Below, piece by piece: positions 42,622 through 57,989 of a DNA stretch of 64,000 bases. The notes below the pieces were generated by a model that worked only from the letters and a program-made list of their open reading frames with translations, had not been told where the DNA came from and ran no database searches. Source of the DNA: Anaerostipes caccae L1-92 (GTDB lineage Bacteria > Bacillota > Clostridia > Lachnospirales > Lachnospiraceae); contig NZ_AP023027.1 in the NCBI RefSeq assembly GCF_014467075.1, positions 1,263,001 to 1,327,000 of the forward strand, in the 5' to 3' direction. A program made the position numbers and the translations under genes. The first letter of the stretch is position 1, and each line of letters begins with the position of its first letter.

Positions 42622-43452
42622 GTGCAAATTACAAGAATTATAAATAATAATATTGTAATTTCAGAAGATAACAGCCATCGTGAAGTGGTACTAATGGGAA
42701 GAGGACTGGGCTTTCAGAGACATCCCGGAGATGTGATCGACTCAGATAAAGTCGAGAAGACTTACATAATGAAAGACCATGGAATGACACATCGCTTTCA
42801 GCAGATGGTAGCAGACATCCCCATTGAACGATTGGAAATATGTAATGAAATTATTCAATATGCAAAAGACACTTTGCAAAAGAATATCAATGACAATATT
42901 TATATTTCTCTCACAGACCATATTAATTTTGCCATTGAACGGGTAGAGATGGGTGTTCCCTTCCAGAATCCATTTTTATGGGAAATCAAAAAGTTCTACT
43001 ATCAGGAATATCTGATCGGGCAGGCCGCCATCCGCATGATTGAGCGGAAGTTAAAGGTTACTCTGCCGCAGGATGAAGCGGCGTTTATCGCACTGCATAT
43101 TGTCAATGCAGAACTGGATCTGGATATGACAGAGATGGTTTCCATGACCAAGCTCACACAGCATATCTTAAAGATCGTAGACGAGTGTTTTCCTGACCAG
43201 ATGGATAAAGAATCTGTTTTTTACGAAAGATTTATCACACATTTGAAGTTTTTTGCACAGAGAATCTTTACAGGCAATGAAGTGGAGAGTGACGACACAG
43301 AGTTCCAGGAGATTATCCGGAACAAGTATCAGGAATGTCTGGACTGTGTGGAAAAGATCAGAATTTATATAAAAAATACGTGCAATCATGATATAACGGA
43401 TGAGGAGATGATGTATCTCACCGTTCATATCAAAAGAGTGATTACAAGATAA
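42622..43452 (+). CDS. licT: LicT/BglG-family transcriptional antiterminator
   Basis: An RNA-binding regulator of sugar PTS genes. The 276-residue protein has a CAT RNA-binding domain (1-58, with NNNIVISED and GRGLGFQ) and two PRDs. The four phosphorylatable histidines fall at H100, H159, H207 and H269, the same positions as in Bacillus subtilis LicT. The start is GTG 42622. A RAT site lies before this gene and an identical one before the PTS genes, so it controls both itself and the mannose-family PTS. Phosphorylation by the cognate EII would switch it off, and by HPr would switch it on (family knowledge). Confidence 0.93.
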   Translation: MQITRIINNNIVISEDNSHREVVLMGRGLGFQRHPGDVIDSDKVEKTYIMKDHGMTHRFQQMVADIPIERLEICNEIIQYAKDTLQKNINDNIYISLTDHINFAIERVEMGVPFQNPFLWEIKKFYYQEYLIGQAAIRMIERKLKVTLPQDEAAFIALHIVNAELDLDMTEMVSMTKLTQHILKIVDECFPDQMDKESVFYERFITHLKFFAQRIFTGNEVESDDTEFQEIIRNKYQECLDCVEKIRIYIKNTCNHDITDEEMMYLTVHIKRVITR

Positions 43453-43722: not shown

Positions 43723-44709
43723 ATGGTAGGAATTATTCTTGCTACGCATGGCGGATTCGCAGATGGTATTATGCAGTCCGGGTCCATGATCTTCGGTGAC
43801 CAGCCCGATGTGGCAGCTGTTACACTGCAGCCGAGCGAAGGGCCAAATGACATCAGAAAGAAGATGGAAGACGCAATCGCTTCTTTTGAAAGTCAGGACG
43901 AAGTATTATTCTTAGTCGATCTTTGGGGAGGAACTCCATTCAATCAGGCAAACGGACTTGTATCAGAGCATGAGGACAAATGGGCGATTGTAGCCGGCTT
44001 AAATTTGCCGATGCTGATCGATGCCTACGGCTCACGCATGACGATGGAGACAGCTCACGAAGTTGCAGTCCAGATCGCAGGAAGCGGAAAAGAAGGGGTG
44101 CGCATCTATCCGGAGTCTCTGGAACCGAAGGAGGAGCCGGCAGCCGGACAGCAGGCAGAAGCACAGCCTCAGGGAGCGATCCCGGAAGGAACCGTATTAG
44201 GGGACGGACACATCAAATTTGTGCTTGCCCGCATTGATTCCCGTCTGCTTCACGGACAGGTGGCAACTGCATGGACAAAGACAACACAGCCGAACAGGAT
44301 TATCGTCGTATCCGATTCAGTGGCTCATGACGATCTGCGTAAAAAACTGATTCAGGAGGCTGCGCCTCCGGGAGTACGCGCAAATGTTGTTCCTGTGGAC
44401 AAAATGATTGAGGTCTCAAAAGACCCGCGCTTTGGAAACACAAAAGCACTGCTGCTTTTTGAGACACCTCAGGATGCTCTGCGTGCCATCGAAGGCGGAG
44501 TGGACATCAAGGAGCTCAACATCGGCTCCATGGCTCATTCTGTCGGAAAAGTAGCCGTGAGCAAAGTTGTATCTCTCGGAAAAGAAGACCTCAAGACGTT
44601 TGCAAAATTAAAGGAACATGGAATCGGCTTTGATGTCCGCAAGGTGCCGAGCGATTCCAAAGAAAACATGGATGAGATCATTAAAAAAGCAGAAGCCGAG
44701 TTATCTTAG
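43723..44709 (+). CDS. manX: PTS mannose/fructose/sorbose family EIIAB
   Basis: A cytoplasmic fusion of EIIA and EIIB that passes phosphate from HPr to the incoming sugar. Of its 328 residues, the EIIA domain (1-130) has ILATHGG with the phosphorylated H9 and LVDLWGGTPFNQ. An Ala/Pro/Gln-rich linker follows (about 135-160). The EIIB domain (164-328) has RIDSRLLHGQVATAW with H177. AGGAGG precedes the start. Control is by the RAT/terminator upstream. The substrate is probably mannose or glucose, given manO and manA downstream. Confidence 0.95.
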   Translation: MVGIILATHGGFADGIMQSGSMIFGDQPDVAAVTLQPSEGPNDIRKKMEDAIASFESQDEVLFLVDLWGGTPFNQANGLVSEHEDKWAIVAGLNLPMLIDAYGSRMTMETAHEVAVQIAGSGKEGVRIYPESLEPKEEPAAGQQAEAQPQGAIPEGTVLGDGHIKFVLARIDSRLLHGQVATAWTKTTQPNRIIVVSDSVAHDDLRKKLIQEAAPPGVRANVVPVDKMIEVSKDPRFGNTKALLLFETPQDALRAIEGGVDIKELNIGSMAHSVGKVAVSKVVSLGKEDLKTFAKLKEHGIGFDVRKVPSDSKENMDEIIKKAEAELS

Positions 44710-44744
44710 GCTTCACACATTCAGAAAATAGAGGAGGAATTATA

Positions 44745-45545
44745 ATGTCAGCAATTTCAATCGTATTAGTTATTATAGTTGCCTTTCTAGCTGGTATGGA
44801 AGGAGTTCTGGATGAATTTCAGTTCCATCAGCCGCTGGTTGCGTGTACATTAATTGGACTTGTGACCGGTCAGTTAGAAGCAGGTATTATTTTGGGCGGT
44901 ACATTACAGATGATCGCTTTGGGATGGGCAAACATCGGTGCCGCTGTTGCACCGGATGCCGCGTTAGCTTCTGTAGCTTCCGCTATCATCTTAGTCCTTG
45001 GAGGACAGGGCACCGCTGGTGTCAGCACTGCCATCGCAGTTGCGATTCCTTTGGCAGTTGCAGGTTTATTCTTAACAATGGTTGTACGTACACTTTCTGT
45101 GGCATGTGTTCACCGTATGGACGCAGCTGCTGAAAAAGCAAATTTCAAAGGTGTTGAAATTTGGCACATCATCGCGATTGCTATGCAGGGACTCCGTATT
45201 GCAATTCCGGCAGGAGCGCTTCTGTTCATTCCTGCGACAACCGTGCAGAATTTCCTTACATCTATGCCGGCATGGCTGACAGATGGTATGGCAATCGGCG
45301 GTGGAATGGTTGTAGCCGTTGGTTATGCGATGGTTATCAACATGATGGCAACAAAAGAAGTTTGGCCGTTCTTTGCAATCGGTTTCTGTGTTGCTGCACT
45401 TTCAGATCTGACATTGATCGCATTGGGAGCTATCGGTGTATCTCTGGCATTGATTTACCTTACACTGTCTGAGAGCGGCGGTTCTTCTAACGGCGGAGGA
45501 AGCAATACAGGTGATCCGCTCGGCGATATTCTGAATAATTATTAA
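44745..45545 (+). CDS. manY: PTS mannose/fructose/sorbose family EIIC
   Basis: A 266-residue membrane subunit with the family sequences MEGVLDEFQFHQPLVACTL, GLVTGQLEAGIILGGTLQM and AVAPDAALASVASAI. With EIID it forms the sugar channel. It is the middle gene of the AB-C-D operon, with AGGAGG before the start. The Gly/Ser/Asn tail (GGSSNGGGSNTGDPLGD) is typical of ManY-type proteins of the mannose subgroup. Confidence 0.95.
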   Translation: MSAISIVLVIIVAFLAGMEGVLDEFQFHQPLVACTLIGLVTGQLEAGIILGGTLQMIALGWANIGAAVAPDAALASVASAIILVLGGQGTAGVSTAIAVAIPLAVAGLFLTMVVRTLSVACVHRMDAAAEKANFKGVEIWHIIAIAMQGLRIAIPAGALLFIPATTVQNFLTSMPAWLTDGMAIGGGMVVAVGYAMVINMMATKEVWPFFAIGFCVAALSDLTLIALGAIGVSLALIYLTLSESGGSSNGGGSNTGDPLGDILNNY

Positions 45546-45563
45546 TTGAAGGAGGTATGAAAA

Positions 45564-46475
45564 ATGGCAGAAAAAATTACATTAAGTAAGAAGGAACGAT
45601 TGTCCGTTGCATTGCGCTCTACCTTCCTTCAGGGTTCTTGGAACTATGAACGTATGCAGAATGGTGGCTGGGCATTTTCAATTATCCCGGCAATCAAAAA
45701 GTTGTATAAGACAGAAGAAGAACGCTCAGCGGCGTTAAAACGTCACTTGGAATTCTTTAACACGCATCCGTATGTTGCTTCTCCGGTTATCGGTGTTACA
45801 CTGGCGCTGGAAGAAGAACGTGCAAACGGAGCAGAGGTCGATGACGCAGCGATCCAGGGTGTTAAAGTCGGTATGATGGGGCCTCTGGCCGGTGTCGGAG
45901 ATCCGGTATTCTGGTTCACCGTTCGTCCGATCCTTGGAGCTCTCGGAGCATCTCTTGCGATGACAGGAAACATCATGGGACCAATCTTATTCTTCGTACT
46001 GTGGAATGTGATCCGTTGGGGATTCATGTGGTACACACAGGAATTCGGATACAAAGCCGGCGCAAAGATCACAGAGGACCTTTCCGGAGGACTGCTGCAG
46101 AAAGTCACGAAGGGTGCGTCCATTCTCGGTATGTTTATCCTCGGCTCGCTGGTTCAGCGGTGGGTATCCATCAGTTTCCAGCCCGTTGTATCAAAGGTAT
46201 CTCTGAGTGACGGAGCCTACATTGACTGGGGAAAACTTCCTGAGGGAGCAAAGGGAATCCAGCAGGCATTTGAGCAGTATGCATCAGGCCTGTCACTGAC
46301 CCCGACCAAGATCACAACTTTACAGAACAACCTGGATTCTTTGATTCCTGGATTAGTTCCATTATTATTAACATTATTCTGTATGTGGCTGCTGAAAAAG
46401 AATGTTTCACCAATCATTATTATCATCGCATTATTCTTAGTTGGTATTGGCGGACACCTTATCGGATTGTTATAA
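45564..46475 (+). CDS. manZ: PTS mannose/fructose/sorbose family EIID
   Basis: A 303-residue membrane subunit. It starts with the family features LRSTFLQGSWNYERMQNGGW and HLEFFNTHPYVASPVIGVTL, then GVKVGMMGPLAGVGDPVFW, and ends in hydrophobic helices. GGAGG precedes the start. It is the last gene of the operon and is followed by a strong terminator. Confidence 0.95.
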   Translation: MAEKITLSKKERLSVALRSTFLQGSWNYERMQNGGWAFSIIPAIKKLYKTEEERSAALKRHLEFFNTHPYVASPVIGVTLALEEERANGAEVDDAAIQGVKVGMMGPLAGVGDPVFWFTVRPILGALGASLAMTGNIMGPILFFVLWNVIRWGFMWYTQEFGYKAGAKITEDLSGGLLQKVTKGASILGMFILGSLVQRWVSISFQPVVSKVSLSDGAYIDWGKLPEGAKGIQQAFEQYASGLSLTPTKITTLQNNLDSLIPGLVPLLLTLFCMWLLKKNVSPIIIIIALFLVGIGGHLIGLL

Positions 46476-50240: not shown

Positions 50241-51185
50241 TCATGGATCCTGCAAAAGCTGGATCATTATATTCGTTGCTGTATTTACGGTATTGATCTC
50301 AGACTCTACTGAACGGGATGCGATGTGGGCAGTTTGGATAAAGTGATCCATCTTGATCAGCTCATCGACCCACGGTTCCCTATGGGGAGGTTCTGTGGTG
50401 AAGACGTCGGATGCACAGGCGTAGATCTCCTTGTTTTTTAAAGCTTTGTAAAGAGCGTATTCGTTTACAATTCCGCCCCGGGCTGCATTTATTAAGACAG
50501 CCGTGTCCTTCATCATTTTAAACTCTTTGGTTGAGATCATGTCTTTTGTATTTTCAGTAAGCGGCACGTGGATGGATATAAAATCACATTCTTTCAGGAT
50601 ATGATTCACAGATGTTTGCTTTGCGTTGTATTCAGCCAGTACATCTTGGGCAGCATCAAACATATCATAGATCAGAACTTCCATTCCGATCCCGTTTGCT
50701 ATTCTCGCGACATGTTTTCCGATATTACCAAACCCGATAATACCAATTTTCTTATGAAAGAGTTCCAGTCCTGTTGGTTTGTCCCAGCCGTGACTTTTGA
50801 CATTCATAGCATTGCTCACAATATGCCTTGCCGCTGCAAACATCATTCCGATGGTGAGTTCGGCGACTGCATTGGAATTCGTTCCAATGCAGCGGCCGAC
50901 TTTAATCCCTAGTTCTTCACAGACAGAAAGATCAATATTATCGGTCCCAACCCCGAATTTCACAATGGCTTTTAGGTGCCTGCATTTCCGGAGGAGCTCT
51001 TCATTCAGTTCGTCAACGCCCGCGATGATCCCGGACGCCCGCTTTGCTTTTTCTGCAAACACGTCTTTTGGAAGTGGTCTGCCTGTATGATTGACGTCCA
51101 TTTCATAGCCAAGTACTTCTAAACGTTTTCCTGCTTTACTGCCGTATTTTGCGTATCCTCTCGGTGTTACTAGAATCGTTTTCAT
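50241..51185 (-). CDS. D-2-hydroxyacid dehydrogenase (SerA-like)
   Basis: A 314-residue NAD-dependent dehydrogenase. The NAD-binding loop is GIIGFGNIGKHVA, and the catalytic triad is in NAARGGIVNE (Arg), TTEPPH (Glu) and TAHIASRS (His). It resembles phosphoglycerate dehydrogenase without the ACT domain; related enzymes act on glyoxylate, hydroxypyruvate or sugar acids. It is the last gene of the seven-gene PTS operon on this strand, 4 bases after the aldolase. It may reduce or oxidise the product of the aldolase or a sugar-acid intermediate (inference). Confidence 0.85.
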   Translation of the reverse strand: MKTILVTPRGYAKYGSKAGKRLEVLGYEMDVNHTGRPLPKDVFAEKAKRASGIIAGVDELNEELLRKCRHLKAIVKFGVGTDNIDLSVCEELGIKVGRCIGTNSNAVAELTIGMMFAAARHIVSNAMNVKSHGWDKPTGLELFHKKIGIIGFGNIGKHVARIANGIGMEVLIYDMFDAAQDVLAEYNAKQTSVNHILKECDFISIHVPLTENTKDMISTKEFKMMKDTAVLINAARGGIVNEYALYKALKNKEIYACASDVFTTEPPHREPWVDELIKMDHFIQTAHIASRSVESEINTVNTATNIMIQLLQDP

Positions 51186-51189
51186 ATGC

Positions 51190-51822
51190 TCATCCTTTTC
51201 TTACGTCTGTTACAATATCACGCAGCTTTTTTGCGTTTGCCGCAATTTCCTCTGTGGAACCTTTGGTAAGTAATCCGCCCAGGCCAACGCAGTCAGCTCC
51301 GCTGTCAAACCACTCTGCAAGGTTGTCGAAGTCAACTCCGCCTGATGCCATGACCGGCACCTGGGGGCATGGGACTTTTACCACTTTAGCTAAGCTGGGG
51401 CCGTAGTAATTGGAGATTGGAAATGCCTTTATAAAGGATGCGCCTGCCTTTAATGCCGTCAACATTTCCGTATAAGAAGTACATCCCGGTGCATATGGAA
51501 TCTGGTATAAGTTGCAAATTTGCGCGACACCGTCGTCATAACAAGGGGCAATGATAAATTGTGCCCCGCTCATAATTGCAAGGCGGGCCGTTGTTCCGTC
51601 CAGGACGGTGCCTGCGCCGACCAGAAGATCCTCCTTATATTTCTTTTTTAAAGCAGAGATCACTTCTCCGGCGTTGTTGTTGGTATAGCTGATTTCAAGA
51701 ACATTGACTCCGCCATCCAGGCATCCCTGAGCGATCTCATAACCACGTTCCACAGTATCCACCCGGACGATTGCCATTAAGCCGGTTTTTTTGATTCCTA
51801 AAATAATTTCTTCCTTTTTCAT
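51190..51822 (-). CDS. eda: KDPG/KHG-type aldolase
   Basis: A 210-residue TIM-barrel aldolase that splits 2-keto-3-deoxy-(6-phospho)gluconate or similar into pyruvate and an aldehyde. It begins with GLMAIVRVDTVERG, the catalytic Glu region is LEISYTNNNA, and GAGTVLDG follows. The Schiff-base lysine lies in SFIKAFPISNYYGP, and ASGGVDFDNLAEWFDSGAD ends the barrel. The usual SPGF phosphate-side residues read APCYD, so the substrate may differ from KDPG. GGAG-like AAGAGA precedes the start. It sits between the deacetylase and dehydrogenase genes of the PTS operon. Confidence 0.9.
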   Translation of the reverse strand: MKKEEIILGIKKTGLMAIVRVDTVERGYEIAQGCLDGGVNVLEISYTNNNAGEVISALKKKYKEDLLVGAGTVLDGTTARLAIMSGAQFIIAPCYDDGVAQICNLYQIPYAPGCTSYTEMLTALKAGASFIKAFPISNYYGPSLAKVVKVPCPQVPVMASGGVDFDNLAEWFDSGADCVGLGGLLTKGSTEEIAANAKKLRDIVTDVRKG

Positions 51823-51847
51823 TTTTATCTCTTCTTTCTTTTATAAG

Positions 51848-52612
51848 TTATAAGTCTCTGGATGTAATAAATTTCATTTTGTCTAATTTAGCCTTTTTGA
51901 AACTATCTTCAAGATGCGTACCGCCTGTGTAGTTATCAATAAAATAACCCTCGACCAAGACAGGATGAACGTATACCTCTGCCTTCTTTTCTTTCATAAG
52001 CTGGGGATTCCTGCTCTTGCGGTTTTTATCAAAGGTGGCCACACTGCTGGAATAGTCTGTATGACGAAGGTGCAGCTGATTCATTTTTTTCTTCCACTGG
52101 GTGCCGTAGAAATGCCGCCATTTACTCCCGTTAAAAAAACTGTTTCCAATGTAACGGACAGATTCAAATTTGTATTTTTTTAACAAGGGTATCAATCCGT
52201 AAAGAACCGGAATATCATAAAATGCACAGTGGTGGGAGTCTATATTCATTAGAGAAAAACCTCCGCTTAAATACTTTTGGATCTGTGCTTCTATTTCCTC
52301 TGCGATGACATCTGCGTACATTGGTGTAACCCGGTGCAGAAAATCGGGGTGATAATCAAACAGATCTGATCTGGCATATTGTTTCAGCTTTTTAATCCCG
52401 GAGGTTAACGGTGTCCCGTCGAACAGATTGATATGTAAGCCGACCTTGTGCTTAAAGTTATTTTTTTCTGCCAGGGACACTGCCTCATCAAAATAATTCG
52501 TGTTGGTCACGACAGAAGCCTGGGAGCAAAAACCTTCATTGAAGGCTTTTGCGATTCCCAGATTCGCTTCATGGGTCAATCCAAAATCGTCAGCATTTAG
52601 TATAATTTTCAT
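51848..52612 (-). CDS. ChbG/HpnK (YdjC-family) carbohydrate deacetylase
   Basis: A 254-residue member of the YdjC family, which removes acetyl groups from N-acetylated sugars such as chitobiose phosphate. The metal-binding and catalytic motifs are intact: NADDFGLT (D8, D9), KVGLHINL (His) and NIDSHHC (Asp, His), and there is a C-terminal VHPVLV. It directly follows EIID (10-base gap) in the PTS operon. The likely substrate is an acetylated sugar phosphate delivered by that PTS (inference). Confidence 0.88.
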   Translation of the reverse strand: MKIILNADDFGLTHEANLGIAKAFNEGFCSQASVVTNTNYFDEAVSLAEKNNFKHKVGLHINLFDGTPLTSGIKKLKQYARSDLFDYHPDFLHRVTPMYADVIAEEIEAQIQKYLSGGFSLMNIDSHHCAFYDIPVLYGLIPLLKKYKFESVRYIGNSFFNGSKWRHFYGTQWKKKMNQLHLRHTDYSSSVATFDKNRKSRNPQLMKEKKAEVYVHPVLVEGYFIDNYTGGTHLEDSFKKAKLDKMKFITSRDL

Positions 52613-52622
52613 GGTTTATCCT

Positions 52623-53447
52623 CTAAAAGAATCCGATCAGTGTTCCCACTGTGCCAATTAGGATCAGCACCAGCAATATGATGTTTACATTGACTTTTTT
52701 TCTCAACATAAATACAGTTAATAGAGTGATTCCCAACGGCAGTATACCTTTTAAGATACTGTCAAATACCGCAGTCTGCACGTCCAGTGTACCTGTGCTT
52801 AAATTTAACTTTAATCCGCAGGACACAGTTACATAAGATGCCACCAGTCCTCCCAGTACAGTTGCCCCGACGATGGTTGCTTTTTCGGTTACTTTGTTTA
52901 ATAAACCGCTTCCGATGATCTTTCCGATTCCTTCGCGTCCCATATAGTAACCTTTGGTATAGGATAAGTAACCAAGACCGAATAACACAACACCAATGAT
53001 CAATAAGTAGATGATCGGTCCTAAGAAGTTGCCGGCCTTTGCCATACCAAGGATAATACCCAATGCTATGGGGGATAACGTTCCCTGCCAGATTGTGTCG
53101 CCGATACCTGCCAGAGGTCCCATCAAACCTGTTTTGATGCTTGAGATCATTTCTTCGTCTACATCTTCACCGTTTGCTTTTTGCTCTTCTAAGGCAAGAG
53201 TAATCCCTAAGATACAGCCTCCTACATTCGGTTCTGTATTAAAGAACTCCATGTGTCGTTTGCATGCGTCTTTTAATTCCTGTGTCTCTTTTCCGTATAA
53301 TTTTTCCAGACTCGGCGCCAGAGTATGCAGCACCCCGGAAGCCTGCATTCGTTCATAGTTGTAGGTTGAATGGCTGAAGAATGTCCAGATCAGATAGGAC
53401 TTAATGATATCTTTTTTACTTAATCTCTTTTTTTCTATGGTTTCCAT
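52623..53447 (-). CDS. PTS mannose/fructose/sorbose family EIID (second system)
   Basis: A 274-residue membrane subunit with YLIWTFFSHSTYNYERMQAS, HMEFFNTEPNVGGCILGITL and IKTGLMGPLAGIGDTIWQGT. It is clearly paralogous to the EIID at 45564 but well diverged and with a shorter middle. GGAGG lies before the start. It closes the transport part of the operon. Confidence 0.94.
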   Translation of the reverse strand: METIEKKRLSKKDIIKSYLIWTFFSHSTYNYERMQASGVLHTLAPSLEKLYGKETQELKDACKRHMEFFNTEPNVGGCILGITLALEEQKANGEDVDEEMISSIKTGLMGPLAGIGDTIWQGTLSPIALGIILGMAKAGNFLGPIIYLLIIGVVLFGLGYLSYTKGYYMGREGIGKIIGSGLLNKVTEKATIVGATVLGGLVASYVTVSCGLKLNLSTGTLDVQTAVFDSILKGILPLGITLLTVFMLRKKVNVNIILLVLILIGTVGTLIGFF

Positions 53448-53459
53448 GTTGATTCCTCC

Positions 53460-54224
53460 CTAACTTAAAGCTGAACTTTCGCTGTTCTGTAAAAGTGCTA
53501 TAATCACTGCTAAAATACCGATGACCACCAGTGGCAGGTTGATATAAATAGATAAAATAAAACCTAACAGCAGATATAAGTATGCTTTTGCCCCAGCGTT
53601 AGATAAGATGGCTTTAAAATTCATTGCAATACCAAGGGCAGGAAGAATTGTCCCGATCGTAGTCAATACATCAATCACTGGTGTCCCTTTTAATGCCTGC
53701 AGCATACTTGTAATAACACCTGACCCGCTATATACGGCAATTGCTACCGGAATGGTATAAATGATACACTTAAAAATCTGGGAAGGAACGATGTTATAGA
53801 AAATAATTTTCTTTACATCTCCTGTCTCCGCAATTTTATCGGTTCTATGGACAATGAAAATATCCCCTGTCATATAAATCATCCATAACAAGTTGCCCAG
53901 CAAGGAAATCGGTACTGCAAGTGTCACTGCGACTCCTGTGGACGCATTTGAAATGATTGCCAGTGCTGTTCCGACAGTTCCCGCCAGGCCCTCATCCATG
54001 GTCTGGGCGCCGCCTGCCGTAATCTGTGCAAGATAGGTTACATTGATCGCCGCACCGACCATACAGCCTTTGACAGGATCGCCTAAGATAAGACCAACCA
54101 GGATTCCGGATATTAAAGGCCTTCTCAGCGCCCAGCTCATGTTAACAGTAAGCCATGGTGTCCCATTTGCTCCCAAATAGTAGACCAGGCCAATCAAAAC
54201 TGCCTGTAAAATTGAAATATGCAT
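53460..54224 (-). CDS. PTS mannose/fructose/sorbose family EIIC (second system)
   Basis: A 254-residue membrane subunit with GANGTPWLTVNMSWALRRPL, ISGILVGLILGDPVKGCMVG and TAGGAQTMDEGLAGTVGTAL. The DE and GG features of this loop differ from ManY and resemble subgroups that carry amino sugars or sugar acids (inference). GGAGGG is upstream of the start. It lies between EIIB and EIID. Confidence 0.93.
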   Translation of the reverse strand: MHISILQAVLIGLVYYLGANGTPWLTVNMSWALRRPLISGILVGLILGDPVKGCMVGAAINVTYLAQITAGGAQTMDEGLAGTVGTALAIISNASTGVAVTLAVPISLLGNLLWMIYMTGDIFIVHRTDKIAETGDVKKIIFYNIVPSQIFKCIIYTIPVAIAVYSGSGVITSMLQALKGTPVIDVLTTIGTILPALGIAMNFKAILSNAGAKAYLYLLLGFILSIYINLPLVVIGILAVIIALLQNSESSALS

Positions 54225-54238
54225 GTTTCTCCCTCCGC

Positions 54239-54715
54239 TTAAAGTATTTTATTTATCTCTACAGTTTCCATATTTGGCACGACCTGAATATACACATGTA
54301 TATGTTGTGCTGACAATTGCTTCAACATATCTCTCTCTTTATCACTTGCTGAAATATTTTTATATAATTTTTTTCGTTCTTGAGTAGAACCCATTCCGCC
54401 TAAATTGATTTCTTTTACTTGGACACCTTTTTCAAGCAAATCCAGAAAAACTTTGGGTCCCTTTGCTAAAAGAATGATGTTTTTATCCTTATCTTTTATC
54501 TTTTCTAAATACTCTGCGGCGTCGTCAATGGTCATTGCCTGAGCGTTTAGGTGCTTTGGTACTGCACCTGTAATGACTGCACTTAAAAATGGATCCTTTG
54601 CGACTTTGTCGTCTACAATCACAATTTCATTCCCTCCCACATGCTGGACCCATGCTGTCATGACTTGGCCGTGAATCAAACGGTCATCAATCCGTGATAA
54701 TACTATTTTGCTCAT
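54239..54715 (-). CDS. PTS mannose/fructose/sorbose family EIIB (second system)
   Basis: A 158-residue cytoplasmic phosphocarrier. It begins IVLSRIDDRLIHGQVMTAWV with the active H15, followed by EIVIVDDKVAKDPF. Unlike the first system, EIIA and EIIB are separate proteins. It overlaps EIIA by 4 bases (ATGA), so translation is coupled. Confidence 0.95.
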   Translation of the reverse strand: MSKIVLSRIDDRLIHGQVMTAWVQHVGGNEIVIVDDKVAKDPFLSAVITGAVPKHLNAQAMTIDDAAEYLEKIKDKDKNIILLAKGPKVFLDLLEKGVQVKEINLGGMGSTQERKKLYKNISASDKERDMLKQLSAQHIHVYIQVVPNMETVEINKIL

Positions 54716-55125
54716 AATGTCCCTCCTCTCTCCATATTTAATGATAATTTGGCAATTCCCTGTTTTCCGGTCTCAACAAGATAATCTGCCAGCTCATCCA
54801 ATTTCATATCGTTTCTTTTCAAAGCTGCTTCCACCAGCATAGATAGATTAATTCCCGACACACAGATAACATGTTTATCCCTGTTATGATGAATCGCCTG
54901 GGCTGCGGCATTGTATGGGCTGGCTCCTAATAAGTCTGTCATGAATAAGATATCGTGATCTGTGTCCGCGGCAAAAGAATCGACCCTTTTGATAAAAGTA
55001 TCAATACTGTCCTCATGCCGCAATCCAAGAAACCATATATTTTCCTGCTTCCCTATCATAAGTTCCAATGCATCGATCATACCTTCTGCAAGTCCCCCGT
55101 GTGTCGCCACTATAATGTCTGTCAT
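54712..55125 (-). CDS. PTS mannose/fructose/sorbose family EIIA (second system)
   Basis: A 137-residue cytoplasmic phosphocarrier starting with IIVATHGGLAEGM (active H9), then FMTDLLGASPYNAAAQ. It is the first gene of the seven-gene operon EIIA-EIIB-EIIC-EIID-deacetylase-aldolase-dehydrogenase. AAAGGAGGA precedes the start. The upstream region carries a catabolite-control-like site and a promoter, and is shared with the divergent LevR-like regulator. Confidence 0.94.
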   Translation of the reverse strand: MTDIIVATHGGLAEGMIDALELMIGKQENIWFLGLRHEDSIDTFIKRVDSFAADTDHDILFMTDLLGASPYNAAAQAIHHNRDKHVICVSGINLSMLVEAALKRNDMKLDELADYLVETGKQGIAKLSLNMERGGTL

Positions 55126-55163
55126 CTACATCCTCCTTTATCCGTTAATATGGTAATTCGTTC

Positions 55164-55177
55164 TGTATGCGCTTACA
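55164..55177. promoter_or_regulatory. Candidate cre site (CcpA)
   Basis: TGTATGCGCTTACA differs from the cre consensus TGWAANCGNTNWCA at one position on either strand. It lies between the promoter and the EIIA start codon, where a bound repressor would act as a roadblock. Confidence 0.65.
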
Positions 55178-55189
55178 TCACTTGGGCAT

Positions 55190-55218
55190 ATCCTAACCCA
55201 CAATCTTTATATACGCAA
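55190..55218 (-). promoter_or_regulatory. Promoter of the second PTS operon
   Basis: On the minus strand TTGCGT (55213-55218), a 17-base spacer and TAGGAT (55190-55195). A weak sigma-54-like TGG-N10-GC overlaps it (55185-55200). Confidence 0.55.
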
Positions 55219-55272
55219 ATTTTTTATATACACACTTAATTTACACTCTATTTGAGTTTTTTACTGTGGATT

Positions 55273-55301
55273 TTGCGTAAATTTTAAGTTTCGTGTATGA
55301 T
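55273..55301 (+). promoter_or_regulatory. Promoter of the LevR-like regulator
   Basis: TTGCGT (55273-55278), a 17-base spacer and TATGAT (55296-55301). The -35 box and flanks match those of the divergent promoter. Confidence 0.6.
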
Positions 55302-55381
55302 AAGTGTATATTAATTACATCTGATTCAATTTGTGTGTGTTATAGAAACACCGTAATCAGCACCAAATATACGCAGGAGAT

Positions 55382-57733
55382 ATGGCCATGTCTACGAACA
55401 AAGAGAAGATTTTATCCTATTTAAAAGAAGAAACCTTGCAAAGCATCAATCATCATAATTTTACCTTTGAAAAATGCAATGCGCTTATTCTGTCGATGGA
55501 TTTATATATTGACAGGACAAACGTGTCACGTATCCTAAATGATCTGCACAAAGAAGGAAAATTAATCAAGAAGGCAGGACGCCCCACCACTTTTATTTCA
55601 AGAGAGATCATCCGGAACTCTTTTCCTTTTGCATCCATCCCTGATACATTGAATAAAAATGAAACTATTTCAGACTTCATCCGATATGACGTACCTACAA
55701 AAGAACAGACCATCGTCCAGTCATTTTCTATGGTCGGAAGTCAGCAAAATGGGTCCTTATATGAAGCTGTAACCAGAATCCTGCCTGTGTTTTATCTCCC
55801 CAAATATTTCTTTAAGATCTTTTTTATGCAGGGGGAAGCTGGGACGGGGAAGAAGTTTTTCTTAGAAGAAATGTTAAACCGTGCAAAAATGTTGGGATTG
55901 GCTTCCCGGGAATCATCGGTTTATTATATCGAATTCAGCGATATCTACGTCAATCTAAGAAAGACCATAGAGATGATGGAAAAGGATCATAATATTTTTA
56001 TCCTGGCAATCGAGTTTGTTCAAAAAAACGTAGACGCTGAAGTCTTAAGCGGTTTTGTACATTCTCTTGAAATTCAATATAAAAATAAAAAAGACGCGCC
56101 GATGATTGCCTTTATCGGGGCATCAGAATTACAGTCAGACCTGCTTCATTCCATCAGTCCTGTCATCCTGAACTTTCCTTCCGCAAAAGACCGGCCGCAA
56201 TCAGAATTGATTTCGATTCTATTGAGTATGATCCAAAAAGAGAGCAACCGTTTAGATAAAACAATGTTTGTATCTTCCCAGTTCATTCAGCTGGTTTTAC
56301 ATAAGTGCAGCAATCTGCATCAATTAGAAAATGAGATTTTATATACAATTTCAAGGATTCTCTATACATCAAGTACTGCAGGTAAAAACAATGAACTTAT
56401 GTTAGATGCATCGGTTTTGCTTGATAGTGAAAGGGATGAAATTATAAAATCCATTCCAGAACTAAAGGCAGAGATCCCTGACAAGATACAAATCAGACCA
56501 AACGGAGAAATTGATTTTGATAAATTGTTTCTTAACTCCAATGAGCTTTTGGCTGAAACAAAAAATATAGTTTCAGATTATTTTACAAAGCAGCTGCTGA
56601 TCTGTTCCAGGGTGACTGCCGCTGTATCTGAGAACAGTTATTCCGGCGATAGGCTTATTTCAGGGATCACAAAGGCATTCAATAAAAGTGTATTCTGCCA
56701 GGACCCATTTTTAAAAGAAAAAGTGGAACATATGATTCTGTCTGTATTCCGGAAAGATAAAAGTCTGGATATTGTGAAGGAAACCCCTTCTATGGACATT
56801 CAAACACCACAGATGAAAGCACTGTTAAACAATCTGATTCAATTAGCACAGACAAACCACTGCAAACTGTCAAAAACCCAAGAAAAAATGATCCAATCTA
56901 TACTGGCATATGCCCACTTAATCATGAGTGATATCCATATTCCTGTGATTATTACCTCAAAATATCATTTGTTGGCAAGCAATTACGCAAATCTCTTCAA
57001 TTTATTCTTTGACCGGAGAATCATTCATACCTTTCCTGCTGTTTTATCCGGAAAAAGAAATGAGACACGAACGAACCTTGAGAATTTATATGAATTTGCG
57101 GTCAGTATTAATCGGGGACAGGGGGTCCTGATCTTATCAGACGCGGATATGAAACAAACCATTACCAATTACTTTTTTCCTAAGACGAAGGTATTGTCTT
57201 ATAATGTCCAGTTTCATTCCTTTATTCTGGTGAAAGAGATTTTAAAGCTGTCTGTGAAGAAAAATGCCAGTATTATTTCCATCATCCCAAACCTGTTAAT
57301 AAGCCAGAATGATGAGATGAAGATATTAAAAGACAACCAGTTAAAGAGTTATACTTTAAGATCCGCAGATAAACATCTCTTGTTTGCGTCCAAGCTTACC
57401 CCCGGAATCAATACGTTTACAACGAATGAACTATTTTTTCGTGCTCTGAGAGCAATTGCAAAGAAGCTTGATATCAAGTTAAATAACAGCCTGATCTTTG
57501 AATTCCTTTTTCATGCAAACTGTATCTTATTTCAGAAGAAACATAATTTTGATTTTTCTAAAAATGTCATGGATCACATGGATATTGATTATGCTGTCTT
57601 AGAGGTCATCCAGGAGAAAATACAGGAGCTGTCCTCGCCTGATTTTCATGTATCTGCATTTACCATGAAGGATTATCAGATTCTGTATGAGGCTGTTTTC
57701 CACAGTGCGCTGCAGAGCTTATGGGAGAGATAA
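55382..57733 (+). CDS. LevR/DgaR-like PTS-operon regulator with degenerate activator core
   Basis: A 783-residue protein. The N-terminus is the winged helix typical of LevR-type regulators (SRILNDLHKEGKLIKKAGRP, about 49-68). The AAA+ region keeps a P-loop, GEAGTGKK (151-158), but lacks the GAFTGA loop that contacts sigma-54. Its Walker B site reads ILAIEF in place of hhhhDE. The EIIA-Man-like region (about 530-640) has VIITSKYH where VIVICHG is expected, yet keeps GQGVLILSD. A C-terminal PRD with FLFHANCILF remains. It is divergent from the second PTS operon and is probably its regulator. Sigma-54 dependence is doubtful. Confidence 0.82.
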   Translation: MAMSTNKEKILSYLKEETLQSINHHNFTFEKCNALILSMDLYIDRTNVSRILNDLHKEGKLIKKAGRPTTFISREIIRNSFPFASIPDTLNKNETISDFIRYDVPTKEQTIVQSFSMVGSQQNGSLYEAVTRILPVFYLPKYFFKIFFMQGEAGTGKKFFLEEMLNRAKMLGLASRESSVYYIEFSDIYVNLRKTIEMMEKDHNIFILAIEFVQKNVDAEVLSGFVHSLEIQYKNKKDAPMIAFIGASELQSDLLHSISPVILNFPSAKDRPQSELISILLSMIQKESNRLDKTMFVSSQFIQLVLHKCSNLHQLENEILYTISRILYTSSTAGKNNELMLDASVLLDSERDEIIKSIPELKAEIPDKIQIRPNGEIDFDKLFLNSNELLAETKNIVSDYFTKQLLICSRVTAAVSENSYSGDRLISGITKAFNKSVFCQDPFLKEKVEHMILSVFRKDKSLDIVKETPSMDIQTPQMKALLNNLIQLAQTNHCKLSKTQEKMIQSILAYAHLIMSDIHIPVIITSKYHLLASNYANLFNLFFDRRIIHTFPAVLSGKRNETRTNLENLYEFAVSINRGQGVLILSDADMKQTITNYFFPKTKVLSYNVQFHSFILVKEILKLSVKKNASIISIIPNLLISQNDEMKILKDNQLKSYTLRSADKHLLFASKLTPGINTFTTNELFFRALRAIAKKLDIKLNNSLIFEFLFHANCILFQKKHNFDFSKNVMDHMDIDYAVLEVIQEKIQELSSPDFHVSAFTMKDYQILYEAVFHSALQSLWER

Positions 57734-57784: not shown

Positions 57785-57989
57785 TGATAAAGACAGAGAA
57801 GGTGCACAGTAAGGAAGTCTTTCCCGAATTTCACACCGGAGTCGTATCCCTGAAAGAACAGTAGGGGATAACGTTATCTGCACGTTACGCAGGAGACTAA
57901 GAGCCAGGTCGTTTTTTCCTGGAATTAGGGTGGTACCGCGAGATGATTCCCGTCCCTTATATATTTTATATAAGGGATGGGATTTTTTT
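57785..57989 (+). promoter_or_regulatory. T-box leader (phenylalanine) of pheST
   Basis: The T-box TTAGGGTGGTACCGCG lies at 57925-57940, with an intrinsic terminator TCCCGTCCCTTATATA / TATATAAGGGATGGGA plus seven Ts at 57948-57989. The specifier region reads GAATTTCAC (57826-57834): TTC or TTT, both Phe. Uncharged tRNA-Phe should turn the operon on. Confidence 0.92.

Follow-up and report, generated by a model that had tools for sequence, protein, structure and literature searches.

A conserved eight-gene cassette of Anaerostipes caccae joins a mannose-family phosphotransferase system to a predicted deacetylase, pyruvate aldolase and 2-hydroxyacid dehydrogenase

Which nutrient is taken up, and in which order of reactions is it broken down, by a compact gene cluster of Anaerostipes caccae L1-92 that joins a mannose-family phosphotransferase system (PTS) to three predicted catabolic enzymes? 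The cluster lies in a stretch of 64,000 nucleotides (contig NZ_AP023027.1, positions 1,263,001 to 1,327,000; hereafter the window, in whose numbering all coordinates of the locus are given) and comprises a regulator gene and, divergent from it, seven genes for EIIA, EIIB, EIIC, EIID, a deacetylase of the YdjC/ChbG type, an aldolase of the 2-keto-3-deoxy-6-phosphogluconate (KDPG) type and a 2-hydroxyacid dehydrogenase (HADH). These eight genes constitute a conserved cassette, here termed type I, while types II to IV are labels coined in this analysis for related clusters. The order of events that we prefer, with a probability of roughly 0.4, would be import through the PTS, deacetylation, oxidation at C2 and retro-aldol cleavage to pyruvate.

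A gene scan of the window recovered seven minus-strand open reading frames from 55125 to 50241 and a single plus-strand frame diverging from them at 55382-57733, the tightly packed arrangement that a preceding sequence-only reading had described. First in the series is a complete mannose-family permease, with EIIA (54712..55125, ATHG motif; PF03610, 76 bits), EIIB (54239..54715, DDRLIHGQV motif; PF03830, 156 bits), EIIC (53460..54224; PF03609, 197 bits) and EIID (52623..53447; PF03613, 309 bits). Next follow the predicted YdjC/ChbG-type metal-dependent deacetylase of 254 residues (51848..52612; PF04794), the predicted KDPG/KHG-type class I pyruvate aldolase of 210 residues (51190..51822; PF01081, 107 bits) and the predicted D-2-hydroxyacid dehydrogenase of 314 residues (50241..51185; PF00389/PF02826). 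EIIA and EIIB overlap by 4 bases and the other neighbours lie 4 to 25 bases apart. All seven proteins exceed their Pfam cut-offs, and none reaches an NCBIfam cut-off among the matches listed (25 of 30 for HADH). The permease is one among many in this organism, with 22 EIIA-type matches in the genome (3.59 Mb, one contig).

How widely the arrangement is kept was assessed with a pattern from the deacetylase subfamily alignment, which returned 19 confirmed loci from 84,980 species genomes. At five of these the deacetylase identity was 51-97%, and all five hold the complete cassette, with the regulator diverging from EIIA-EIIB-EIIC-EIID-deacetylase-aldolase-HADH in the same order and orientation; the carriers are Anaerostipes hominis, Candidatus Anaerostipes excrementavium, Holdemanella biformis, Catenisphaera adipataccumulans and Enterococcus pallens. 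At the remaining 14 loci identity was 31-35%, and no other cassette gene was found within stretches of 3.6 to 20.7 kb. Together with the window and a further Anaerostipes genome (L100), which also carries all eight genes, the order is identical in seven of seven carrier genomes read (four Anaerostipes, Holdemanella, Catenisphaera and E. pallens; L098 and L099 duplicate the genomes of L010 and L009 and were counted once), and is thus not due to chance. Subfamily members are also listed in Faecalicoccus, Absicoccus and metagenomes, which stand outside this count for want of genomic context. The search for the same gene order that the sequence-only reading had suggested hence finds it in other Anaerostipes and in two further families, and the claim of a co-inherited catabolic operon distinct from the Salmonella dga system holds, the same eight genes occurring in every carrier read with no ammonia lyase adjacent.

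The deacetylase of the cassette is nevertheless rare, being present in four of 11 Anaerostipes genomes (window included), two of 272 Erysipelotrichaceae genomes and one of 398 genomes spread over the phylum, the latter being the window's own. A search at 1e-40 in 150 Lachnospiraceae gave three matches, namely the window's own and two distant YdjC proteins, and the 18 plasmid records that the deacetylase retrieved all had less than 60% identity, those with a name being of ChbG/HpnK type. The flanks of the window, L009 and L100 are shared, while comparison by eye of the four least related loci, L010 to L013, revealed no further gene common to their flanks. The cassette thus looks self-sufficient, with no further dedicated gene needed. 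Considering that the gene order is common to three families (Lachnospiraceae, Erysipelotrichaceae and Enterococcaceae) while the flanks of L010-L013 differ, we infer that it is mobile and has spread horizontally between families.

As judged from their residues, the three enzymes of the cassette look active, since those expected for catalysis are kept. In the deacetylase, D8, D9, H60, H127 and H216 are invariant in 19 of 19 aligned rows, and the first four align with D10, D11, H61 and H125 of ChbG, of which D10 serves as the base and the other three as metal residues (PMC9402603). H216 is likely the counterpart of ChbG H206, a pair that falls outside the alignment. An AlphaFold model (predicted local distance difference test, pLDDT, 92) is nearest to EF3048, ChbG and CmCBDA, at 18-21% identity. 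The protein stays below the cut-off of NF002559, the equivalog for chitin disaccharide deacetylase (86 bits, cut-off 227). With its PF04794 fold, in which the metal and base residues of the DD-H-H pattern are kept, it is a plausible N-deacetylase.

Analogously, K132, E43 and R20 of the aldolase are invariant in 11 of 11 aligned rows, and we take K132 to be the Schiff-base lysine and E43 the base glutamate. Of the seven proteins it comes nearest to an NCBIfam cut-off (NF005119, 227 bits, just below 238), and its solved relatives include the KDPG aldolase 1wa3. It belongs to the KDPG/KHG family, and a KDPG-type substrate is predicted. In HADH the GxGxxG motif, D174 and R236-E265-H287 are invariant in 12 of 12 aligned rows; by the known rule Asp174 presumably marks an NAD-type enzyme, and R236/E265/H287 we regard as the Arg-Glu-His triad. 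The best solved chains, 2ekl and 1wwk, are both called D-3-phosphoglycerate dehydrogenase, HADH scoring 232 bits against a cut-off of 454 for the 3-phosphoglycerate dehydrogenase model TIGR01327 (SerA), and its relatives include GhrB-type proteins and others named 2-ketogluconate reductase. Of what had been proposed from the letters of the DNA, a plausible N-deacetylase with ChbG-type residues and a pyruvate aldolase of PF01081 with its residues kept are retained, whereas the need for an amino-removing step encoded elsewhere is not.

Where HADH acts relative to the aldolase is suggested by related clusters in Enterococcaceae, Erysipelotrichaceae and on a Clostridioides difficile plasmid. A homologous aldolase is found in most of them, HADH in types II and III, and a mannose-family PTS in type II and in two type III loci (L057 and L058); as opposed to type I, types II and IV carry SIS-type and DapA-like genes, and type III MtlD-like and other genes. 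The names SIS, RPE, MtlD, DapA and CdaR-like rest on inspection by eye, apart from those at the annotated loci L061, L057 and type IV plasmid loci. At 1e-75, HADH relatives were found in 11 of 195 Erysipelotrichaceae and 8 of 105 Enterococcaceae, and among 250 Lachnospiraceae in the window's own genome only. At the 13 type II loci HADH always stands beside a mannose-type EIID, accompanied by EIIB and EIIC (12 loci), an SIS-type gene (13), a DapA-like gene (12) and the aldolase (11; L044 and L060, where the stretch or contig ends, have no aldolase row). In L044, EIID is present and EIIB-EIIC absent, with a recombinase gene in that place. In type III (L057, L058, L059) the aldolase-HADH pair adjoins two MtlD-like genes, and in L057 and L058 it sits inside large clusters with mannose-family PTS genes. 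The subfamily of the cassette deacetylase was seen in type I only. The aldolase-HADH pair is thus a core that is reused in other mannose-family PTS clusters without the deacetylase. Plasmids gave 66 records with a type II HADH as query, all below 60% identity.

The type IV plasmid clusters (L083, L084 and L085, from C. difficile, E. faecium and E. gilvus) combine SIS, DapA-like and aldolase genes with an ascorbate-type PTS, and HADH had no match (E<1e-3, 9-10 kb on each side) in any of these three loci (H39, H42, H46), which were opened out of 15 plasmid aldolase records. These genes are homologous to those of type II, with 49-63% identity between SIS proteins (the divergent SIS of L076 left out), and the C. 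difficile aldolase is 71-74% identical to its type II counterparts in L061 and L080. In L076 (Enterococcaceae, G809) ascorbate-like and mannose-type front ends stand side by side, HADH accompanying the latter; the one aldolase beside them, of KDPG type, falls with type IV in the tree. Since the mannose-family clusters carry HADH while the ascorbate-PTS sister module keeps the aldolase without it, the simplest reading is that HADH would act upstream of the aldolase, turning the product of the mannose-family PTS into the level delivered by the ascorbate-type PTS. The context further suggests that genes annotated dapA in these modules serve sugar-acid use, although in L061 (type II) the DapA-like protein scores high enough to pass TIGR00674, a model for the lysine pathway.

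Trees of HADH (26 rows) and of the aldolase (23 rows), with N-terminal overhangs trimmed to the BLAST start, indicate that the two genes travel together, as they agree in the grouping of type I with type III and in one pairing across the types. The six type I rows group with type III in the HADH tree (eight rows, six of type I and two of type III, support 95/89; nine rows, six and three, 91/89) and in the aldolase tree (nine rows, six and three, 97/95), and Catenisphaera (type I) pairs with L057 (type III) in both (96/91 and 98/93). Type I is not a clade in either. The drawings are midpoint-rooted, with the root not established; L065 and L068, labelled type III, fall there with the type II side, and L066 and L067, which match none of the types, carry the label 'o'. 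Further features of these loci are that on the Holdemanella biformis contig (L044 and L011) a type I and a type II cluster lie close together, with HADH paralogues at 234218 and 249693 and, between the clusters, two transketolase subunits, deoC and a phosphatase (named by eye), and that the Erysipelotrichaceae loci L057 and L058 hold two MtlD-like dehydrogenases, RPE-like, HpaI-like and several HADH genes, with a GarD-like gene in L057 (several named by eye), apparently for a sugar-acid pathway.

In the preferred order, the mannose-family PTS would import and phosphorylate one sugar-acid-like substrate, probably N-acetylated or carrying a similar acyl amide. The YdjC-type enzyme would take off the acetyl group, the NAD-type HADH would oxidise the C2 hydroxyl to give a 2-keto acid, and the KDPG-type aldolase would split the latter into pyruvate and a phosphorylated aldehyde, the divergent regulator sensing PTS flux and controlling the operon independently of sigma-54. 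The step order, the direction of HADH, the acetyl group and the signal to the regulator are, like the mobility of the cassette, predictions. If HADH makes the 2-keto acid and the substrate is 3-deoxy, neither deaminase nor dehydratase is needed; the substrate would accordingly be 3-deoxy or otherwise cleavable without a dehydratase.

Several points weigh against this order. Nature offers no obvious nutrient among N-acetylated 2-hydroxy-3-deoxy sugar acids, the substrates of the YdjC family are poorly known, so that the cassette member may cut another bond, and this family of HADH more often reduces 2-keto acids. The adapter role of HADH rests on three type IV loci opened of 15 plasmid records; type IV aldolases do not form one group in the tree, and no account is given of why types II and IV carry SIS and DapA-like genes; L057 of type III has a dehydratase-like gene, and HADH could act differently there. 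Finally, matches of IlvD/Edd type below the cut-off were found in six of the seven carriers, making an unrecognised dehydratase possible.

The alternative that survives best, albeit as an unlikely one, has HADH work as a reductase. Here the imported compound would already be an N-acetyl 2-keto-3-deoxy acid resembling sialic acid, which the aldolase cleaves directly, the YdjC-type enzyme deacetylating substrate or product and HADH reducing pyruvate, or another 2-keto product, to recycle NADH. An N-acetyl group combined with a pyruvate aldolase indeed fits a ulosonic acid, and HADH is related to reductases of small 2-keto acids. HADH however goes with the mannose-family PTS and is not found in the three versions with an ascorbate PTS that were read, a pattern not expected of a generic pyruvate sink, and we know of no PTS import of sialic acid.

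Somewhat more doubtful is that the YdjC-type enzyme cuts another amide or an ester of a sugar acid, the freed 3-deoxy-aldonate, of metasaccharinate type, being oxidised to KDPG and then cleaved. On chemical grounds HADH and aldolase would suffice for a 3-deoxyhexonate 6-phosphate, with neither dehydratase nor deaminase, and metasaccharinic acid (3-deoxyhexonic acid) is an existing compound that needs these two enzymes alone, arising from 3-deoxyglucosone in heat-sterilised glucose fluids (PMC13280894). Nothing links it to the operon, however, it does not need the deacetylase, and the characterised family member ChbG acts on an N-acetyl group (PMC9402603). A related and equally speculative idea, which we consider improbable as a whole, is that the cassette feeds the lower Entner-Doudoroff pathway through its PTS. 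The substrate would be an aldonic acid of the 3-deoxy kind, N-acylated or not, such as might come from food sugars that were heated or glycated; oxidation at C2 would turn it into KDPG or an analogue without dehydratase or deaminase, the cassette having spread among gut Bacillota including Anaerostipes under a LevR descendant freed from sigma-54.

The third alternative calls for a deaminase. Congruent with the earlier claim that no ammonia lyase accompanies the operon, none of DgaE type is found in the cassette, and the carrier genomes were searched for an unlinked one. TIGR01437, which we take to cover DgaE, exceeded its cut-off in one of the seven carriers (E. pallens, two genes), with weak matches in the other six; in 14 named control genomes matches were weak in nine and above the cut-off in none. 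PF14031, to which OngC presumably belongs, matched none of the seven carriers and two of the 14 controls. An unlinked DgaE (below the cut-off in six of seven carriers) and a deaminase of the OngC/D-serine-dehydratase type (PF14031 in none of seven) were hence set aside. These counts do not support the claim that the amino-removing step is done by an unlinked gene; the related clusters suggest in its place that HADH itself makes the 2-keto acid, so that deamination may not be part of the pathway.

These results bear on a route in which N-acetylglucosaminate, known from oxidative chitin breakdown, enters through the PTS, the YdjC-type enzyme yields glucosaminate-6-phosphate, an unlinked deaminase forms KDPG, the aldolase cleaves it and HADH is accessory. 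In its favour are the presence of a YdjC-family enzyme and a KDPG-type aldolase, the two DgaE-family genes of E. pallens, the Salmonella dga system with its PTS, DgaE-type lyase and aldolase (PMC9529869), and the marine ong pathway, which leads from GlcNAc1A through the deacetylase OngB and the deaminase OngC to 2-keto-3-deoxygluconate and KDPG (PMC9537276). Deacetylation, deamination and cleavage would nonetheless have to proceed without a deaminase of the tested families in six carriers, because TIGR01437 stays below its cut-off and PF14031 has no match there, and the ever-present HADH is unexplained. A deaminase of another family is possible, but we disfavour this dga-like route and regard it as improbable. 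Very improbable is the last alternative, in which HADH is a 2-ketoaldonate-6-phosphate reductase whose product reaches KDPG, and then the aldolase, via a 6-phosphogluconate dehydratase encoded elsewhere: the GhrB-type and 2-ketogluconate-reductase-named relatives of HADH and the IlvD/Edd-type matches noted above agree with it, yet a 2-ketogluconate route would lack a recognised Edd, this family being above its cut-off in none of the seven carriers (matches in 14 of 14 controls, above the cut-off in two) and without a match in the draft genome of Holdemanella, so that an unlinked Edd was set aside, and the deacetylase is unexplained.

The regulator (55382..57733, plus strand; 783 residues) combines an N-terminal helix-turn-helix-like part, an AAA+ fold with Walker A only and C-terminal PRD/EIIA-like remnants. 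It has no Pfam match above the cut-off and scores 58 bits against the LevR-type model NF047795 (cut-off 1400). Among the best 7993 word-sharing candidates, 11 relatives were found at E<=0.001, the eight closest being without a Pfam domain and the most distant, P0131, being a canonical LevR-like protein (E=1.3e-4); for the close relatives the data give no genomic context. Since P0131 is inside the regulator alignment, a profile comparison of that alignment with P0131 would be circular and was not used. In all 13 rows besides P0131 (one row a fragment) the alignment has gaps in place of the GAFTGA loop. The cassette regulators retain Walker A but neither the acidic pair of Walker B nor the EIIA-type histidine; the PRD2-type histidine is present in the window protein and in most relatives and missing from L011 and L013. 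The model (pLDDT 79, predicted template modelling score 0.50) matches AAA+ folds at residues 105-357; Foldseek and VIA-align cover mainly this part, and no PRD/EIIA structure occurs among the 50 matches listed by each, which excludes nothing. The protein appears to be a diverged LevR descendant and not an ordinary LevR-type activator, which corrects the sequence-only reading.

LevR-like proteins have been described as sigma-54-dependent activators (PMC4987338). Since the cassette regulator lacks the GAFTGA loop, sigma-54 control of the operon is unlikely, and it probably works differently from LevR-like activators. Congruently, no -24/-12 promoter with up to two mismatches occurs in the divergent intergenic region (55126..55381; 23 matches in the window, 29 expected), by which a sigma-54 promoter for the operon was set aside, and a TGG-N9-11-GC scan of five intergenic regions found a single site, in the sequence from the window. 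The parallel to dga through sigma-54 and LevR thereby falls, the Walker B acidic pair missing as well. The intergenic region instead contains three GTGTAT sites as candidate operators. GTGTA[TC] occurs 3, 3, 3, 1, 6 and 1 times in the regions of the window, L100, L010, L011, L012 and L013, against 0.2-0.3 expected (0.25 for the window); the motif was chosen after looking, the six of L012 include one palindrome counted twice, and the counts of L011 and L013 are not above chance, which makes the repeats a post hoc lead. A shared-motif search over five intergenic regions reached 13 total mismatches against 15-16 in shuffles at width 16, and 7 against 7-9 at width 12, hardly an improvement on the shuffled sequences.

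Two neighbours complete the locus. A T-box leader at 57787-57960 (plus strand; RF00230, 100 bits) lies directly 5' of a pheS-like gene and is ordinary control of phenylalanyl-tRNA synthetase. A few kb from the cassette, a separate mannose-family PTS (EIIAB fusion, EIIC and EIID; 43723-46475, plus strand), preceded by an antiterminator-like gene named by eye (42622-43452), is probably an ordinary mannose/glucose permease.

All enzymes and PTS components are members of known families, and a mannose-family PTS with catabolic enzymes and a LevR-derived regulator is likewise a known plan. We take DgaF to be of the PF07071 family, unlike the PF01081 aldolase of the cassette. Background to two further comparisons is that the gfr system uses deglycases, and that the chb operon has a PTS of a different family and a phospho-glycosidase, without aldolase or HADH. 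With chb the cassette has in common a PTS and a YdjC-family deacetylase on an imported N-acetylated sugar, as predicted here, although its own deacetylase is about 20% identical to solved ChbG. Salmonella gfr, for fructoselysine/glucoselysine, likewise links a mannose-family PTS to catabolic enzymes and a LevR-like regulator (PMC4987338), but no cassette gene is assigned as a deglycase. The dga system (dgaABCDEF with DgaR) has the mannose-family PTS, a LevR-related regulator and an aldolase step to pyruvate (PMC4987338, PMC9529869), whereas the cassette lacks a DgaE-type ammonia lyase and has the deacetylase and HADH, with a regulator devoid of the GAFTGA loop. The marine ong pathway resembles the proposed route in that an N-acetylated sugar acid is deacetylated before KDPG is formed, but it relies on a sodium solute symporter for transport, has in OngB a putative D-aminoacylase, and needs OngC deaminase and KdgK (PMC9537276). 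The gene combination of the cassette appears undescribed, as searches of open-licence PMC texts returned no paper whose title describes it, subscription papers being outside the search.

Aggregated, the comparison with the sister clusters narrows the possibilities to a short, testable reaction order on three soluble enzymes and presents the aldolase-dehydrogenase pair as a reusable metabolic module, under a LevR-derived regulator that has apparently lost its contact with sigma-54. For the biology of Anaerostipes and the other carriers, the cassette points to a nutrient that is used by a few gut bacteria and for which present annotation has no name.

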